NCBI RefSeq assembly: GCF_003144195.1
Contig: NW_020290054.1
Location: 43,363 to 107,362 of the forward strand
Direction of reading: 5' to 3'
Source of the DNA: Ceraceosorus guamensis
Lineage: Eukaryota > Basidiomycota > Exobasidiomycetes > Ceraceosorales > Ceraceosoraceae
Length of the DNA stretch: 64,000 nt
Shown: one piece after another, positions 37,958 through 51,416 of the stretch
Layout of the letters: every line of letters starts with the position of its first letter
How positions within the stretch are numbered: position 1 is the first letter of the stretch
Position numbers and translations under genes: made by a program
The notes under the pieces: generated by a model
Told to the model about the DNA's origin: nothing
Seen by the model: the letters and a program-made list of their open reading frames with translations, nothing else
The model's database searches: none

Positions 37958-40299
37958 ATGGTTATGTCCATGCGCCTTGCGCGCTCTGCAACAGCAGCCA
38001 CATCGAGTGTAGGTCGCTCCTCGTCATGCAAAGGTGCTCGAATGCTAAGCACTTCATGTGCCAGAGCCATCAACACACCCGCAACAGAGGCTACGAAAGC
38101 AGCAGGGATCGCCTCAAGGCAGTCTCAGATCAGATCCATCTCTTCTACGCCCTCCAACGATGTCTCAGCCACTCCCCTCGCCAACCCTAAGGGCGCAGAG
38201 TGAGTCCTCTTTGCCATCGCTCTTGCTTGCACCCGGTCGGGTCCTGCTAATCATCTCTCCTCTCATGTGCTGCCTCAACGTTAAAGGCGACCTGAGCCAG
38301 CAAGTACTTTCCAGCAGTCGCCAGAGCCATCTCCCATCCCAATCAGGTCAGCCGACCTGGATCACTCCTTTGTAGGCATGTCCGGAGGAGAAATTTTTCA
38401 TGAAATGATGCTCAGGCATCAAGTCAAGCACGTCTTTGGGTACCCGGGTGGCGCAATTTTGCCAGTCTTTGACGCCATTCACAACTCCAAGCACTTCCAA
38501 TTTATCCTACCCAGGCGAGAAGATGGTGCCGGGCACATGGCCGAAGGCTACGCTCGTGTAACCGGTAAGCCAGGTGTCGTGCTTGTCACTTCTGGTCCAG
38601 GCGCCACAAATGTCATCACCCCAATGCAAGACGCTATGAGCGATGGTACACCTCTCGTCGTCTTTTGCGGTCAGGTGGCCACCAGCGCCATTGGCAGCGA
38701 CGCCTTCCAGGAAGCAGACGTTGTCGGTATTTCACGCAGCTGCACAAAGTGGAACGTCATGGTTAAGAATATCGCCGAGCTGCCTCGCCGCATCAACGAA
38801 GCCTTCAAGATTGCCACATCAGGCAGACCAGGACCTGTGCTCGTCGACCTGCCCAAGGACGTCACTGCCGGTATCCTAAGGCAAGCTCTACCTTATTCGC
38901 AGACGCACCCTTCCCTCGCCGCCTTGCCGTCCAGAGCTACAGCCAGATCCTCTCGCAGCAGAGCGATTCGTCACCAATCGCAGCCAGCTGGGCCCGGAAG
39001 CCTGCCCCATGAGGCTCCCGAAATCGCAGAGGCAGCGCGTCTCATCAATGGTGCCAAGCGACCAGTAATTTACGCTGGCGCTGGAATGCTCTCGACTTCC
39101 CAAGGCCCAGAGCTACTCAAGGAGCTCTCCGAGCGTGCAGGCATCCCAGTAACCACCACCCTCCAAGGTCTTGGTGCTTTTGACGAGCTCCACCCGCTTT
39201 CTCTGCATATGCTTGGCATGCACGGATCAGCGTACGCCAACCTGGCAATGCAGGAGGCAGATGTCATTATCGCGCTGGGTGCACGCTTTGACGACCGCGT
39301 CACTGGTCGTGTGGACAAGTTTGCGCCTCAAGCTCGCGCAGCAGCTCTGGAAGGTCGCGGGGGTATCATTCACTTCGAGATCATGCCAAAGAATATCAAC
39401 AAGGTGGTGCAAGCTACTTGCGCGCTGGAGGGAGACGTCATCGCCAATTTGGCCAAGGTGCTGCCTCAGGTCGAGCAGAAGACGCACCCCAAGTGGCACG
39501 CACGTATCGCGGACTGGAAACAGCGTTTCCCGTTCACGTACTACCCGTCTGATCCATCCAAGGGCGAGTTCCCCAAGCCTCAGGAGGTTATTGAAGAGCT
39601 GGACAGGGCTATCGAGCCTCGCAAGGAAAAGACCATCATCTCGACCGGAGTCGGACAGCACCAAATGTGGGCGGCTCAGCACATCCGATGGAGGCATCCC
39701 CGCTCTTGGGTCTCATCTGGTGGTCTCGGAACGATGGGCTTCGGCGTTCCCTCATCTGTCGGAGCCAAGGTAGCCAGACCAGACTGCACTGTAGTGTGCG
39801 TGGATGGAGATGCCAGCTTTAGCATGACAGCTATGGAGCTTGCCACAGCAAACGAGTTCAACGTGGGCGTCAAGATCCTGGTGCTCAACAACGAATTTCA
39901 AGGAATGGTGCTGCAATGGCAAGATCTCTTTTACGAGCAGCGCTACTCTGGAACGAGGATGACCAACCCGGATTTCTGCAAACTGGCCTCGGCTATGGGT
40001 TGCCACACTATCCACTGCGACTCGCTCACCGACCTGCCGGCCAAGATGAAGGAGTTCATCGAGTACGATAATGACAGACCAGTCCTGTTCGAGTGCCGCG
40101 TCGTTACTGCCGAGCATTGCTACCCTATGATCGCCGCCGGCTCCGCGTTGCACGAGATGACGATGCACCCGAGCCTTGTCGAGTAAGTGTCGAAATCTCA
40201 TCTCTTCACGCCGCTCTCGTCTTCCGCTGATCTTTTGCCTCCCTGTTCTCTTCGCAATCACTCAGGGGCTTCAAATCCATCAAGCCGGCAAACGCCTAA
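37958..40299 (+). CDS. ILV2: acetolactate synthase catalytic subunit (ILV2), mitochondrial
   Basis: Thiamine-diphosphate enzyme making 2-acetolactate or 2-aceto-2-hydroxybutyrate, the first common step of Val/Leu/Ile synthesis. Exons: 37958-38199, 38287-40182, 40266-40299 (723 aa). The basic N-terminus (SMRLARSATAATSSVGRSSS) is a mitochondrial presequence. The core is clear: GYPGGAILPVFDAI, REDGAGHMAEGYARVTGKPG (catalytic Glu), and the ThDP motif GDASFSMTAMELATANEFN. The small third exon is inferred: the frame would stop at GAG TAA (40186), but the last GA|GTAAGT is a perfect donor and CACTCAG|G restores phase, adding GFKSIKPANA. Ending at 40186 is the alternative. Confidence 0.95.
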
Positions 40300-41252: not shown

Positions 41253-42169
41253 GTTGGGAAAAGGGGGGATGGCTTGCGCAGAAATGGTTTATTGGTGAAA
41301 GTTGTAGGTGCGGTGCATTACCCCCACTCGACCGCCTGATCCCTTGCTACCAAACCGACACGTCGAGGTCAAGGATCCCGTCCGGCACCGGCGCAGCTGA
41401 TATCTGGCGTGTCTGATCACGCTCCGTTGCAAGCGCTGCGTATCGATCTCGACCTCCCAGCGACGATTGCGATCCACCCACAAGGAGAGGGGCGGAGGGG
41501 GAGGGGGGCGCTAGCAGGCAAGGATGTGACTTCGACACGGATCTGAACGCGGAAGCTGTTAGGCAATGTCTCTTCGACGAAATTTTTAGTGAAAGCGCCG
41601 ACGTCGAGGCCAGACTTGTCTGACTTGATCGCCTTGAATGCAGATCAGAGTTAAAGTGGATGATGGCTCGAATGTTTGAAGGAAGCGATGAAGTGACAGT
41701 GTCGACGACGTCTTTGACAGCAACACCGCTCGCTTGCTGCTTGCTTTATGCACTCGACACATCCAGCCGCATCGTCTGTGCGCACAGACGGCCTGCTGCG
41801 TGGCGCAACATGTTGCCCATGTTCTCACGCCTCTCGTTGGTGCCGCGCGTGCATCCATGGCATTCGCGTTGGAGGGCCGGGCCTGGCCTCCAAGCATCAT
41901 CTTCGACCTCAGACGCTGCCTCGATCCACTCGACATCGAAGCATCTCGCCTCATCTCATCGCCTTAGACTTTTGACTACACGTCCCGATCAAGAACAAGC
42001 GCAAGAGGCAGATCATCGACGCTCACACACAACACACCAAACACGACTGGGTAGCTTGCGAGCGGGTCCTCCCTTTCAGATCAGAACATTCTCGAATAAA
42101 TTTCCGCAGGGCAAAAAAGAGAATTTTCTTCTCGCGCCAAGGCGAGAAGAATGCGGTGGGCGTCTCAAG
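41253..42169. other. DPM2-U2 spacer
   Basis: About 0.9 kb. It holds the DPM2 promoter and one exon-like open segment on the minus strand (41417-41632), described separately. Confidence 0.4.
41417..41632 (-). other. exon-like open segment, unrecognised
   Basis: After a TTTAAC (branch-like) and CAAG acceptor, a 71-codon open stretch reads AIKSDKSGLDVGAFTKNFVE then ETLPNSFRVQIRVEV, which looks like real protein. A different frame just downstream (to 41347) also looks protein-like (RDRYAALATERDQTRQIS). No start exon could be assembled and I do not recognise the family; it may be chance or an unannotated gene. Confidence 0.22.
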
Positions 42170-42425
42170 GCGGAAGTGTAGAGCGCAAGGACACCCGTGG
42201 CGAGCAGCGGCAAGCCGCACGACTCGACCCCTCGAAGCAAAGAGAGGGTTAACGATTAAATACCACGGAGGGTATGTTACAGTCGTTAAACTATAAAGAA
42301 CAGATACTACACTTGATCTAAGCCAATACTGTAGCGGGGAGGGAGGGAAGAATCGAAGATCAGCGATCGGCTCGGCGATGGATCGAGCAAATGTTAGGGG
42401 TGCGGTACTCACGGCCAGAAAAGGT
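42170..42425 (-). ncRNA. U2 spliceosomal snRNA, interrupted by an intron
   Basis: U2 pairs with the intron branch site. The invariant block GGCTTAGATCAAG then GTGTAGTATCTGTTC (branch-recognition GUAGUA) is present on the minus strand at about 42324-42296. The normal 5' hairpin does not precede it directly. Instead there is CTACAG at 42334-42329, and 84 bp upstream TTTTCTGGCC|GTGAGT. Removing 42412-42329 (GTGAGT...CTACAG, with CTGAT and a pyrimidine tract) joins TCTGGCC to TATTGGCTTAG, giving a GGCC-UAUU-GGCU stem-loop I as in canonical U2. Stem II (ATAGTTTAACGACTGT) and 3' hairpins follow. Exon 1 is about 42425-42413 and exon 2 is 42328 to about 42170; both RNA ends are approximate. Confidence 0.88.
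42329..42412 (-). other. spliceosomal-type intron within U2 snRNA
   Basis: 84 bp, donor GTGAGT, acceptor CTACAG, branch candidate CTGAT about 35 nt before the acceptor followed by a C/T-rich tract; a CTAAC also occurs near the 5' end. It resembles the mRNA introns of the window in length and signals. Confidence 0.82.
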
Positions 42426-43492
42426 GAGGAGGTGAGGAGGGCATGCGCGATTTGCACCCCTTCTTATACCTTTGCAGGGGCGCCTCTCGAACGCGTCGCA
42501 AATGCGCTCGCCACGAAAAATTCTGCGCACGAGCAATGAAGCGGGCGCGTCTTGCGCGTTCGCAGCATAGACCGAAAGCCACGTGTTGCTGGTTACGGAG
42601 CGCAGACGTCCACCCTGTGCTGCGCGCCGCCCCGACTCGAGTACATAAACCCAACTTCGCATCGCCACATTCTTTTGAAATGCTCTCTTTATCCTTTTGC
42701 AAGGGCAGGTGTACAAGACAGTGAGGTCCTTACCGAGTCTGTACTATTTGCTTGGTCGAGAACAACCAACCATAACGTGCCCTCTGTCCTTTGTGACGTT
42801 GGCCACTTTTTTCCTCACTATCCATGATCCGCTCGACTCCCGCACTTCGATCTTACCCTCTGGGCGATCGCGGGCGGCGACGAGCGGAGCGAGCGCGTCA
42901 GCGAAGCATTCTCTTCTCACTCTCCCCACTCTCGTTTTTATTTCTCGAAAGCTAGCCCTCGCAAAGAGCCATTTAATCTTGAGTTGTTACTCTTACTCGT
43001 GTGTTAGGATTTTTGTGAATAACTTCGGGTGTTTTGCCTTGCGTCTGTGAGCAAATGACTCGTGAAAGAATGGCGAGACGGGGGTCTTGCGGGCCTCAAT
43101 CAAGGATGAGCTCGCGATGTATTCAGATTGATTGCCACGGAACCGTGCACTCGCAACAGACCGACTCTGACTCACTGGACTTGATTTCTATTCGCCGAAC
43201 ACGTTGTCAAATCGACGTGGAGAAAGGTTGATGAGGCGGTGCATGGGACCGTGAAATCTTTTTGCTGCATGGCGTCCATCCATCCGTTCAACAAGGGTGC
43301 TCCTTGCCTCTTGACTCGAAGCGCATCCACGAAGCACATTCTGCCCACTCGGCTCGCCAGGCAAAACCCCTCTTGACGCACCTTGATCACTAGAGTGGCG
43401 GATTGAAGAAGAGGCGCACTCGAGCTCTGATGAGGAGGGAAATTCTTCCCTAACACACGCAAGATTACGATCGAGCCAAAGAGCAGGCCAAT
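42426..43492. promoter_or_regulatory. U2 promoter and TRM140 upstream region
   Basis: On the minus strand a TATAAG element (42468-42463) lies about 43 bp before U2, and GCCACGTGTT lies at 42579-42588 (plus orientation), the same 10-mer as upstream of the U1 candidate. No coding gene was recognised in the rest. Confidence 0.45.
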
Positions 43493-45859: not shown

Positions 45860-48800
45860 CTAGAGAAGTATGGCTGCGCTCGCGCAGGCGACGGCGAGCA
45901 GAGCGACAAGAGTGGAAGGCAAATGAGCCGAGCTCGACGCGCCGCCCTCGAAGCCGGTTCCGGGACCATTGAGGCCAGTGACGTTGCCAGCGGTATGGTC
46001 GCGTCTAGCAGCAGCAAGAAGCATCTGAGCAGCCACCGCTTCAGGAGAAGTCTCTCCCGCAAAGGTGAATCCCAAAGCGTCGACGGTTTCTAACCTTCCG
46101 CCAAAGCTTCCTATATTGTTGAGAGAACGACTGGTCGTTTGATAGATTTTTTCCGCCGATGCGACGTGCGTCCGGTCGCCAGTGATGGAAGCGATTCGGA
46201 AGGTGCCAGCAGCCAGCAGTGCAGATCCCGCCGCATCCAAAAATTCGTCCGTCTCGTTCGCATAATTGCGAATCAATCCGGTGCTAGGGTCGGCAAAGCT
46301 GTACGAAGCGTCCATGATCTCCTTGGCCCATTCCGCAATGTCCTCCTTCTCAGTGGTCAAGTCGAAATTGGAATGGGAGAAGGCAGCTAGCACCCTACTC
46401 ATGCCGCTCACCGCCCATCCTTGGCCAGTCAACCAGGCTCCCAAGTCGCTCGCATTCGGAGTCGTGATATCATTGATGTGGTTCCACATTCCCGACGCTT
46501 GTCCGCTCGTTATCAGAAGCCCGTCTCGATACACTGTGATGGGTTTTTGAATCGGCGAGCACCGCATTCATCATTTGTGCCGATCAGGCGACAATGGAAA
46601 GGGGAGATGGTGCGCCGATTAGGCAGCAGGATTGAAAGCGAAAGGAAGGGAAGGGGAAATTGCAGTGGACGTGATGTGAAGAGATGGGATGGCAAAGAAA
46701 GAGTGGCAAGGGACTGCCATGCTCAGGAAGTGTTTGACGGACAGCCAGTGCAGACGCAGTACAAGCTGTCATCTGGCATAAAGAGCTCAATCTAGACACG
46801 TGTGCTCACATCGAATTTGGTCGTATGCTTCCTGCAGCATACTCTGGTTGCTCGTAATAAGGCCGTAAGAAGCGAGAGCCGGAGGCAGCATGTAGATGGC
46901 GTCTGACCAAAGGGCCAAAGAGCTTGCTCGGTGACTGATTGCCCCGTCGCTTGTCCTCGGAGCCGTGTCGAGGAGGTAGTCGATCATCCTTCTAGCCGCT
47001 TGTGCGTAGTAGCCCGAGCCCAGCGTCGAGCCGCTGATCTGACCGCTGGCAAAGGCGCTGACGAGGACTCCTTCGAGACAAGAAGCAGGATCCAGAGCGC
47101 TTCCGGCTGTCCTGTTTTCGTCTCCACTGATACGACTGCAAAGCTTACCAAGACCATCCTGAGCAGACACGGAGTGGTAGCTCATGGCCATCACCGGTAA
47201 AGGCGGGTTAGACAGGTCGCGACTCGAAGCCCTGCGAGGCGAGTACGGGGGACCACCGCGCTCTGCTGTGAAGACGGACCAGCCGCCGGCATCAAGCTCA
47301 AGAAGCGCTGATTGAGCGGTACCCTGCTCCCAGGAAGCCCTTTGTGAGACGAGCATGGAAAGTCGCGCCAGCTCCAGATTGGTGCTGTTTACGTTGACCG
47401 CTGTAGCGGTGGGCAGGGCGCAAAAGAGCATCATGGCCAAGACACCGACAGGTGCAACAGCAGACCACTTGTGTGGCTGGCTAGTCTTTCTGCGACTGGG
47501 AAGTGTGGACGCCCATTTCCCTGTGAGCGTTCCGACGTTGGCCAATGGAGTCTTAAGGGCATCTTGCAGAACGACGAGAGTTCCGTTGGGTCTCACTGTG
47601 CCCATACTCTTCGAGGAGCAGTATTCGCTCTCTTCATTCGCACCGGCAAGGGTGGTACCGGCAACGTAGACCTCACCTGACCAATCCCCTTCCCTTCCCT
47701 TTTCCAGACAGCGGCCGACGTAGCCTCCCTCTTTCGCTGCAGCACTTTCGACGAGCTTGAGCTCGATGCTGACGGCAGGTGGACCAGAGTGATAAGGTGC
47801 GCTGTGGGAGTTGATCGAATGATCGGCAAAAGCTTGCAGATCCAAAGAATGAGTGGCCGACAATGGCGCCGTTGCAGCCACCTTTACTCCCGTCACAGAA
47901 GACGTCAAAAGATTTGATGGCAACCAGGCTTGCATGACTGCAACACCCAAGATGCCTCGCAACGTATCCAGAAGAGATTGAGGCGCATTTCCATCCCCCA
48001 AAATGAGCGCCGAGCGAAGTCGACGGAGCCCCAAAGCTTGCCGCACATCATCAAAGACCAGTCTATCGGCCAAGCCGGTCTGGGATAGGGCGCCGTGACG
48101 AAGGCCGCCGAGCTTGAGACGCAGAGCAGGTCCAGCGAGCGGCGTGCGTCGGGCTCTCTCGGTCAGCGCTGCGCTCAGACTTGAAGCTCCTTTCATGGAC
48201 ACGTAGAGCAGCGTTGGCTTCGCATCGGTGAGAGCACCAGTGACAGCAGGGCGAGAGTCGAATGGACTGCTGACGAGCGCATCCACAGTGAGCGAGGCTC
48301 GAGTGAAGACCGCAAGCAAAGCCAGGACCAGACCAGCTGGTGTAGCGCTGGCTAGGAGTGAGGAGTGCCGCTCCACAAAGATGTGATCCTCTGCATTGGG
48401 AATGGCGTCTCCTGGGAAGAAACCAAGCTGCGCAACCAGTCCAGCGGTGAGCTTCTCGTTGGTCACGGGGACCCAGTGCCCTTCGAGCAAGTAATGCGAA
48501 TGCAGACGAGAAGCCAGTGACAACCGCTCGGATTCTGTGCCGAACGTGGGCATTCGAGCGCCAGCGCCAGCCGAAAGCACTTGTTCGAAAGAAACAACGC
48601 GACGCTTCGATCTGCCGGATGCAACCTCGGCGTCGGATTGAGTAGGAAGGATCAGAAGCGCAGAGTCGTCTGGACTGATCTGTGCTGCATCGTCGAGTGC
48701 TTCGAGGGTGGTGAAGATGGCTGCAACGCGCCCGACGCCTGAGGGTAGTACAGGCATCTTCTCACCTCCGGCTGGCGTCACGAGGGTGTAGAAAGGCGTC

Positions 48801-49318
48801 GAGTCGATGGTTGTCTGGTGAGATGCTGCGATCAGCGCGGTCAAGCTCTCCAGAGAGTCGTTGTGAGCGCAAACAGCCAGCGAAAAGCTGGCGTCACTGG
48901 AGTGGACGCTTTTGACTAGCCCAGCTGCGAAAGCTGCGGCCTGATCCCGCAGCTGACCCACCGAACCGATTTCCCTGCCGTACAGCATCTGTGCCTGGAT
49001 GGGTTCAACCTCGCCACTTTTGCTCTTCTTTGCCTGCTCCTCCTCCACCGTCACTCCGTGAGCGACGATGGCGGGCACATCCACGATGGAGGGTCGAGGT
49101 CTTTCGGCCAGGTTGAAGCCAGCCGGCGAGTTTGCATTTCTGTACTTTGGCGATTCGCCCTTGCCATGCACTTGGGATACATCAGCTTGGCGGGATAAGA
49201 TGAGTGGATGTATGCTGGGTTGATACTGGCTGGAGATGTACAGCGTGAGGGAGAGCGTGATTGTGATGAGCAGCAACAGGATGAGCGTCACGTCATCGAC
49301 GACGAGTGAGAAGGCCAT
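45860..49318 (-). CDS. fused acyl-CoA-synthetase-like and six-hairpin glycosidase-like membrane protein
   Basis: Exon 1 is 49318-46810, exon 2 is 46533-45860 (1060 aa). Residues 8-30 form a membrane anchor (LILLLLITITLSLTLYI). Residues about 70-620 resemble long-chain acyl-CoA synthetases (LVFDDVRQALGLRRLRSALI; PAVSIELKLVES; GEVYVAGTTLAG; NGTLVVLQD), but the ATP-binding TSGTTGxPK loop and the C-terminal catalytic lysine region are not visible, so it is probably not an active ligase. A second hydrophobic segment (VGVLAMMLFCALPTATAV) looks like a former signal peptide. Then comes a GH88/105-like six-hairpin domain (VSQRASWEQGTAQSALLEL; LWSDAIYMLPPALASYG; LYRDGLLITSGQASGMW; GQGWAVSGMSRVL). The end is a hydrophobic tail. 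The frame is open right across the domain border. Confidence 0.75.
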
Positions 49319-51416
49319 GATGCGCGATTGCAGAGAAGGTGTACTGCGTCCAGATCGTTGTGGGAAAGGATGGAAGTGCTGGCTGGACGACGACCGGATA
49401 GAAGATGGGTAGGATGGTGAGGAAACGCGAAAGGGCAAGACTGAGTGTCAAGCTCGATCGCTGACAAGGCGGACGCGAACGTCTGGCCAAAATCGCAGAG
49501 GGCGAGCAGCCTTGGGATGTTGGGGTTCGGCAAGACCCCTGTCTATCGATGTGGTGTGCTTCGGCGAATCAATCGTCGAAATGAATCCGAAAGCACAATG
49601 CGCGAATCGCCAAAGATGCGTCACTGAGATGAGGCTGGCAACTGGAAGGAATTGGAGGTGGAGGCGCGAGCGCAGCACGTGCCCGTGCTCCTGCCGGAAG
49701 CGCTCGGCGGATGACGGAAGCGGCGCAGGTGGCGTGCGTACGAGCGCGGCGCGGCAGCAGTATAGGCAGATAGCACCGATGATGAATCAATGGATCGCTC
49801 GATCTGCTCAACAAGTTTCAGATCGCAAAGCGCGATTGGGTGAGGACAAGTGCGGAGTCGATGTGGTGCTGAAAGAACAAGGTTTTTGGGAAAGGTTCAG
49901 CTACCGTTCACACGCGGGATTTGATGACGAGTCGTGAATGTTGACCGAATGGGAGAAGAGCAGATGACTGACTCGCGACTGATGCTCACGGCGAGGTGTT
50001 CAGGAAAGGGTCGAGATACGAAGCGAAGGGTGAAGATGGTGGTCGCGAATCACGTACAGGCTTACGCTGCAATCAGGATGATCGCACCAAAATGGTTAAA
50101 GACTTACTGACCGCACCTTCACTGACGCAGCTCCGGATATTCGTTGCTCAAAGCAAGACCGCCAGGTCCTCTGCGGCAGTATGAGCATCAAGACTTGGCA
50201 CGGGGGGGAAAGAGAGGGTGGTGCATCCTTTCGCAACCAGGGTAACGGCGGCCTCACGACTTGCAACGGTACCGCCGTTGCGTCGCGGAACGCACGGCGA
50301 GATCAAATCCAGCATGTGCTCACTTCACCGGTGAATGGAGATTCCTCGTCTCGCCATTTTTGCGCGGTCGCGGTCTCATTCATTGCCGTAAGAGAGCGTG
50401 AGGAGCATTCGAGAGGGACCGAAAGAAGCTCTTGCCAAGATCTTCGGCGCAATTTGCCTGCAAAGAACTACATGCGCGGCCTTCTCCAAGCAAAGTTCAT
50501 GTCAAGGCAGGCGGAACATCACTCTCGACTTGACGTTGCATCGCGCACGCAAGGAAGCTTGCTCGGATGCAGGGGCGAGCGCATGCCCGGCCAGACCTCG
50601 AAGCACCGACGCGTGGCTTGGGTCTTGGCGCATCGTACGTGCTCATCTTCGTGCGCACAACAACCTCACATCATCCATCGGTCGCCAGTCGCCAGTCCCA
50701 AGCGTGTTGTATCATTGCTGGCTTGCATTCCCGGCCGGGCGAGCGTCTCAGCCTTCCGCAGATCGGTCCGGGGGGCGAAGAGGCTAGTCGCAATGTACCC
50801 AGAAGGCTCGAGGAAGAGCACGTGTGAACGTGCAAAACAAATCGCCAAGGGGCCTGTTCCCGCCCACTTTCCATTGCAGACATGCCGGTGATCTCGTGTC
50901 CCAAGGCGACGGCATCTGCCACAATCTTCTGGATCAGAAAGCTATGCAACGTCGGTCTGCCGGAGCAGTGCACATAGTCTATGCTTCTAAGCGCGTCGAA
51001 TTGCCAAGAATCCTGCCGTGTCGTTTCACGTACCTACTCCAATCTGGAATACAGGGACTTGATCTTGGCAGCTTATTGAGTGAGCCCGCTGCCTGGAGTC
51101 CTGTTGCTGCGTTGTCGACGGCGCAATACACACGGCCTCTCATTTCTGCTGTTCTTTGACCTGTCGCGGGATACTTAGACGTCAAGTGCTTCAAAGCTGC
51201 AGCCTTCGTCATTTCCCCATCGCACGGTCAATCAATACCCGATCTAACCTTAGCACGCTTCGCTCGAATTCAAGTGGTATTCGTTTTGCAATGTATGGCT
51301 AGATGTACAGTGGTAGACATGGCAAATACTACAGGGGCGGGCTGGGTCATGCGCAGAAGGTGCCAAGTGCCGCTTCGACAATACCCGTATTCTCTCTCTC
51401 ACCACTTTGCAGCTCT
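49319..51416. other. 2.1 kb gene-poor spacer
   Basis: Upstream of the fusion gene and downstream of the membrane-protein gene. I find no convincing gene. An 8-bp inverted repeat AACGGCGG/CCGCCGTT with a 20-nt loop lies at about 50243-50280, and GCACGTGC at about 49675. Confidence 0.4.

Follow-up and report, generated by a model that had tools for sequence, protein, structure and literature searches.

A U2 snRNA gene of Ceraceosorus guamensis probably interrupted by a spliceosomal intron in stem-loop I

An ordinary GT-AG spliceosomal intron very probably splits the sole U2 snRNA gene found in the basidiomycete Ceraceosorus guamensis. It would lie within the loop of stem-loop I, and we infer its removal from the sequence. 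The gene lies on the minus strand of a 64,000-nt stretch of DNA (the window; assembly GCF_003144195.1, contig NW_020290054.1, positions 43,363 to 107,362). An earlier note on this DNA had proposed a U2 gene interrupted in this way, and that reading best fits the RNA structure, the splice-site statistics of the genome, the distance from the promoter and the alignment to intact U2 genes. The span given there, 42170–42425 (minus strand), leaves out the last 19 nt at the 3' end of the match to Rfam. Exon 1, ACCTTTTCTGGCC, comprises 13 nt (42413–42425, minus strand) and would supply the 5' end of the RNA and the 5' strand of stem-loop I, with a presumed transcription start at its first nucleotide. 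The putative intron, GTGAGT...CTACAG, occupies 84 nt (42329–42412, minus strand). Exon 2 (178 nt, 42151–42328, minus strand) begins TATTGGCTTAG; it completes stem-loop I with its loop and 3' strand and carries the GTAGTA block and stem-loops IIa, IIb, III and IV.

Most of the gene is recognized directly in the unspliced DNA. An Rfam scan yields a match to RF00004 (U2) at 42346–42151 (minus strand) that scores 95.6 bits against a gathering score of 46 and covers all 192 model positions. The branch-site recognition block had been described as canonical, and it is: GTAGTA at 42310–42305 (minus strand) stands in a context, GAUCAAGUGUAGUAUCUGUUCUU, identical to the Rfam consensus. The fit is good from TATTGGCTTAG on, with GATCAAGTGTAGTATCTGTTCTT equal to the model consensus. 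The Sm-site region (42244–42238, minus strand) reads CUCUUUG where the model has AUUUUUG. Running the U2 model on the unspliced sequence, a check suggested beforehand, gives a match in which stem-loop I is poorly aligned: the initial 14 model positions are forced onto CCUCCCUCCCCGCU, a 4-nt insert (acag) follows, and stem I contains non-standard pairs. Rfam misaligns this hairpin because the 84 bp at 42412–42329 interrupt it.

Omission of these 84 bp restores the missing structure. Joining ACCTTTTCTGGCC to TATTGGCTTAG gives an RNA of 191 nt, compared with the 192 model positions, and its 5' end forms UCUGGCC-UAUU-GGCUUAGA, a hairpin of seven pairs and one bulged U at -6.7 kcal/mol. Stem-loop I is present at the U2 5' end only once the segment is left out, so the proposal that an 84-bp GTGAGT...CTACAG piece splits the 5' hairpin is borne out. 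The specificity of this effect was gauged over the 970 positions (about 1 kb) upstream of exon 2. They include 54 GT dinucleotides; only two of these donors, that at 42412 among them, attain the fold energy when the preceding 13 nt are joined to exon 2, and the intron's own donor alone also closes the four-base loop at that energy. Among the 54 it alone follows KGCC, and its sequence is GTGAGT. When all 970 positions are considered, 14 attain the energy and two also form the loop; for random 13-mers drawn from the window (n=20,000) the corresponding counts are 712 and 73. Across the 128,000 positions of the window, 21 fit the pattern GTGAGT..CTRAY..YAG, a count that includes real introns; KGCC followed by GTGAGT recurs once, on the window's plus strand. 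A chance origin of the rebuilt hairpin is unlikely.

Intact U2 genes for comparison were fetched by the core U2 block, which retrieved four stretches (L003–L006) of genome_contigs from three records; the block was not found in viral_contigs. The U2 sequences in L003–L006 are probably eukaryotic contamination in records labelled bacterial. Two of the stretches hold the 5' end of U2, ATCGCTTCTCGGCCTTTTGGCTAAG in L003 and ATACCTTTCTCGGCCTTTTGGCTAAG in L006, whereas L004 and L005 begin too late. Exon 1, ACCTTTTCTGGCC, resembles these intact 5' ends, as in the L006 sequence ATACCTTTCTCGGCC, and folds with exon 2. In 14/14 alignment cells with letters, the inner four pairs of the stem are standard; they never vary and are therefore without covariation support. 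Invariance of the core block among these loci is no evidence, because the loci were fetched by that block.

The same alignments bear on an intronless reading, according to which transcription begins within the supposed intron, near 42346, and the RNA has a degenerate stem-loop I. Rfam places the 5' end there and still awards 95.6 bits. The alignment to L003, however, scores 85 for the spliced 5' domain, against 73 for the unspliced sequence and 73 for a start inside the intron, and that to L006 scores 96, against 79 and 79. The stem formed from the internal start contains non-standard pairs. Promoter spacing points the same way: TATAAG (42463–42468, minus strand) starts 43 nt upstream of the A of exon 1, and the start inside the intron would lie 122 nt from it. 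This reading would also leave unexplained the GTGAGT, the branch motif, the acceptor and the exact GGCC match, and is considered very improbable.

The records that supplied the comparison loci contain other features of note. L003 comes from a 5.6-kb contig labelled bacterium (JAOZOU010000036.1) that carries U2, U1, a 5S rRNA and three histone 3' stem-loops; its matches at 118–309, 509–672 and 1323–1441 are eukaryotic contamination. L004 has U2 at 1–184 in a MAG contig labelled Deltaproteobacteria, probably contamination of the same kind. A single contig labelled Trichormus contains U2 twice and U1 (L005 1–184 and 1527–1690; L006 1762–1838), again probably eukaryotic contamination. A further core-block match in L005, at 770–793 on the minus strand, has an unusual context.

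The splice signals of the 84-nt segment were compared with those of introns predicted in the same genome. Control introns were obtained from 264 kb of DNA that includes the window (4,648 of its bases are N), using a codon-usage gene finder whose sole requirements for an intron were GT, AG and a length of 40–160 nt. Earlier versions of the finder were set aside, the first as too strict (10 introns) and the retuned ones as weak (65 and 130 introns). The set used comprises 147 predicted introns from a crude finder that handles the strands separately, some of them surely false. Although the finder was given only GT, the donor is GTGAGT in 33/147 and GTGAG in 47/147; 34 of the 47 GTGAG introns end in CAG and seven in TAG (41/47). 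Of the 33 GTGAGT introns, 22 are no longer than the 84 nt of the U2 segment. CTRAY lies 12–50 nt before the exon in 25/47 GTGAG introns, compared with 8.7% of 5,000 random stretches. The CTGAT and pyrimidine tract named in the earlier note are both in place. The A of CTGAT (42359–42363, minus strand) is nucleotide 42360 and precedes exon 2 by 32 nt, within the control range of 16–46, and a second motif, CTAAC, lies 66 nt before exon 2. In the 28 nt preceding the acceptor CAG the pyrimidine fraction is 0.86, which exceeds the control 95th percentile of 0.79. A published survey gives the fungal branch consensus as RCTRAY at 6–36 nt (PMC5832005), which GCTGAT at 32 nt fits. The branch site is not diagnostic, because CTRAY occurs in just 25 of the 47 control introns. 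In donor, branch motif, acceptor and length, the U2 segment matches the predicted introns of this genome.

A second, uninterrupted U2 gene, alone expressed, had been named as the finding that would count against an intron; in the 23.8-Mb assembly (199 contigs) Rfam found one U2 gene, the one described here, with 46 of 150 candidates scored, and a diverged second copy among the remainder is possible. The present copy, with its insertion, might instead be a U2 gene that is broken or has been retired, the normal gene falling in an assembly gap. The 199 contigs and the non-detection of U6, U1 and U5 mean that genes may be missing, and the Sm-site region is unusual. Against this, everything beyond the junction, from the branch-recognition block through stem-loops IIa–IV, fits the model at 95.6 bits, the inserted piece bears full splice signals, and the gene adjoins U4 and has a TATA box. 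A retired copy is accordingly judged a highly unlikely explanation, and an intron within a working gene is preferred.

The neighbouring U4 gene (42691–42828, plus strand; 48.4 bits against a gathering score of 46, with a poorly matching 3' half) is the only U4 that Rfam found in the assembly. It has the full model length and is without a large insert. U2 and U4 are divergent, their 5' ends 265 bp apart, and each has a TATA-like box at a similar distance; that of U4, CATAAA at 42644, lies 47 nt upstream. No direct repeats shared by the two promoters were found, and the repeat search returned one 10-nt inverted pair. Two protein-coding regions of the window may also be recorded. The acetolactate synthase frame at 38378–40186 has its best solved-structure match in 6wo1 (920.8 bits), the Cryptococcus enzyme, as would suit a basidiomycete. 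An 883-aa reading frame at 46787–49438 (minus strand) has Glyco_hydro_88, at residues 811–876, as its sole Pfam match; the long N-terminal part is without one, and two genes may therefore have been run together.

The remaining spliceosomal RNAs were sought in the assembly. U1 and U5 gave no Rfam match, and the Rfam models for both may miss diverged fungal genes. U6 was not found by the Rfam model, a lax Rfam search, one U6 sequence or five patterns (one of them for the 3' end). The U6 candidates that arose were rejected on inspection by eye: L007, L008 and L013 because they are without U6 context; L010 because it sits in the apparent start of a dehydrogenase-like reading frame; L011 (15.9 bits, E 2.8) because it falls within a coding gene; L012 (15.9 bits, E 3.0) because it falls within an FKBP-like coding gene; and L009 because it is the U4 gene itself. 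An Rfam scan of 15 of the 20 control stretches (L014–L028) gave nothing at the gathering score. U6 is normally easy to find, so it may contain introns or be missing from the assembly. That U6, U1 and U5 of this fungus also contain introns is a guess.

Transcription start, splicing and dependence on existing U2 can be envisaged as follows. (i) RNA polymerase II would start near 42425, driven by the TATA box at 42468. (ii) The precursor transcript would be capped. (iii) U1 would bind GTGAGT directly after the 13-nt exon. (iv) An existing U2 snRNP would bind the branch site around 42360. (v) The spliceosome would excise the 84 nt, joining exon 1 to the remainder. (vi) Finally, the mature 191-nt U2, with its normal 5' hairpin, would fold and be assembled. 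The first exon, at about 13 nt, would leave U1 very little length to bind beside the cap, and the start could lie further upstream. The U2 gene is seemingly single-copy, and the cell would therefore need pre-existing U2 in order to make more.

Introns in the RNA genes of the spliceosome are informative about intron gain. Stem-loop I of U2 lies between stretches that pair with U6. An intron in this hairpin provides an added insertion point for testing the idea of reverse splicing, which, as described for U6, puts introns near the catalytic RNA of the spliceosome (PMC10484740). If U2 is indeed single-copy and requires U2 in order to mature, it would form a natural positive feedback loop. Annotation that relies on models can misplace the 5' end of such genes, as the Rfam match does here.

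Several known systems invite comparison. The U2 intron of Rhodotorula hasegawae is reportedly 60 bp long and situated just downstream of the branch-site recognition region. The putative C. guamensis intron is likewise of mRNA type and in the U2 snRNA gene of a fungus, but its 84 nt lie within the stem-loop I loop, and no large insert follows GTAGTA. An independent gain is therefore probable, and the case looks like one with a very short first exon. The combined proposal of an independent 5'-hairpin intron, a self-dependent U2 and introns in U6, U1 and U5 that account for their non-detection is rather doubtful. The R. hasegawae intron was published in 1993 (Takahashi et al. 1993, MCB 13:5613, as cited in PMC2586383). 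The earlier note had called the class known, correctly citing snRNA introns in Rhodotorula, but had left U2 unnamed. No U2 intron in stem-loop I appears in the titles or abstract openings among the matches listed, a coverage outside which most subscription journals fall. U6 introns are on record among fungi, Schizosaccharomyces included (Tani and Ohshima 1989, 1991; Canzler 2016, as cited in PMC5832005), and the fission-yeast U6 intron, of mRNA type, lies near catalytic nucleotides (PMC10484740). These share with the present case an mRNA-type intron in a spliceosomal RNA gene and differ in the snRNA concerned. As to position, the U2 intron resembles the fungal U3 snoRNA pattern of first-stem-loop introns. 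One survey describes the U3 introns as spliceosomal, 92 nt on average and located almost exclusively in the first 5' stem-loop, with donors mostly GTRWGT, branch sites RCTRAC and a broad occurrence in Basidiomycota; 138 of 310 fungal U3 genes contain them (PMC5832005). U3 acts outside the spliceosome, and its introns are therefore without self-dependence. Introns in spliceosomal RNA genes are known but rare, and the position in this U2 gene differs from that reported in R. hasegawae.
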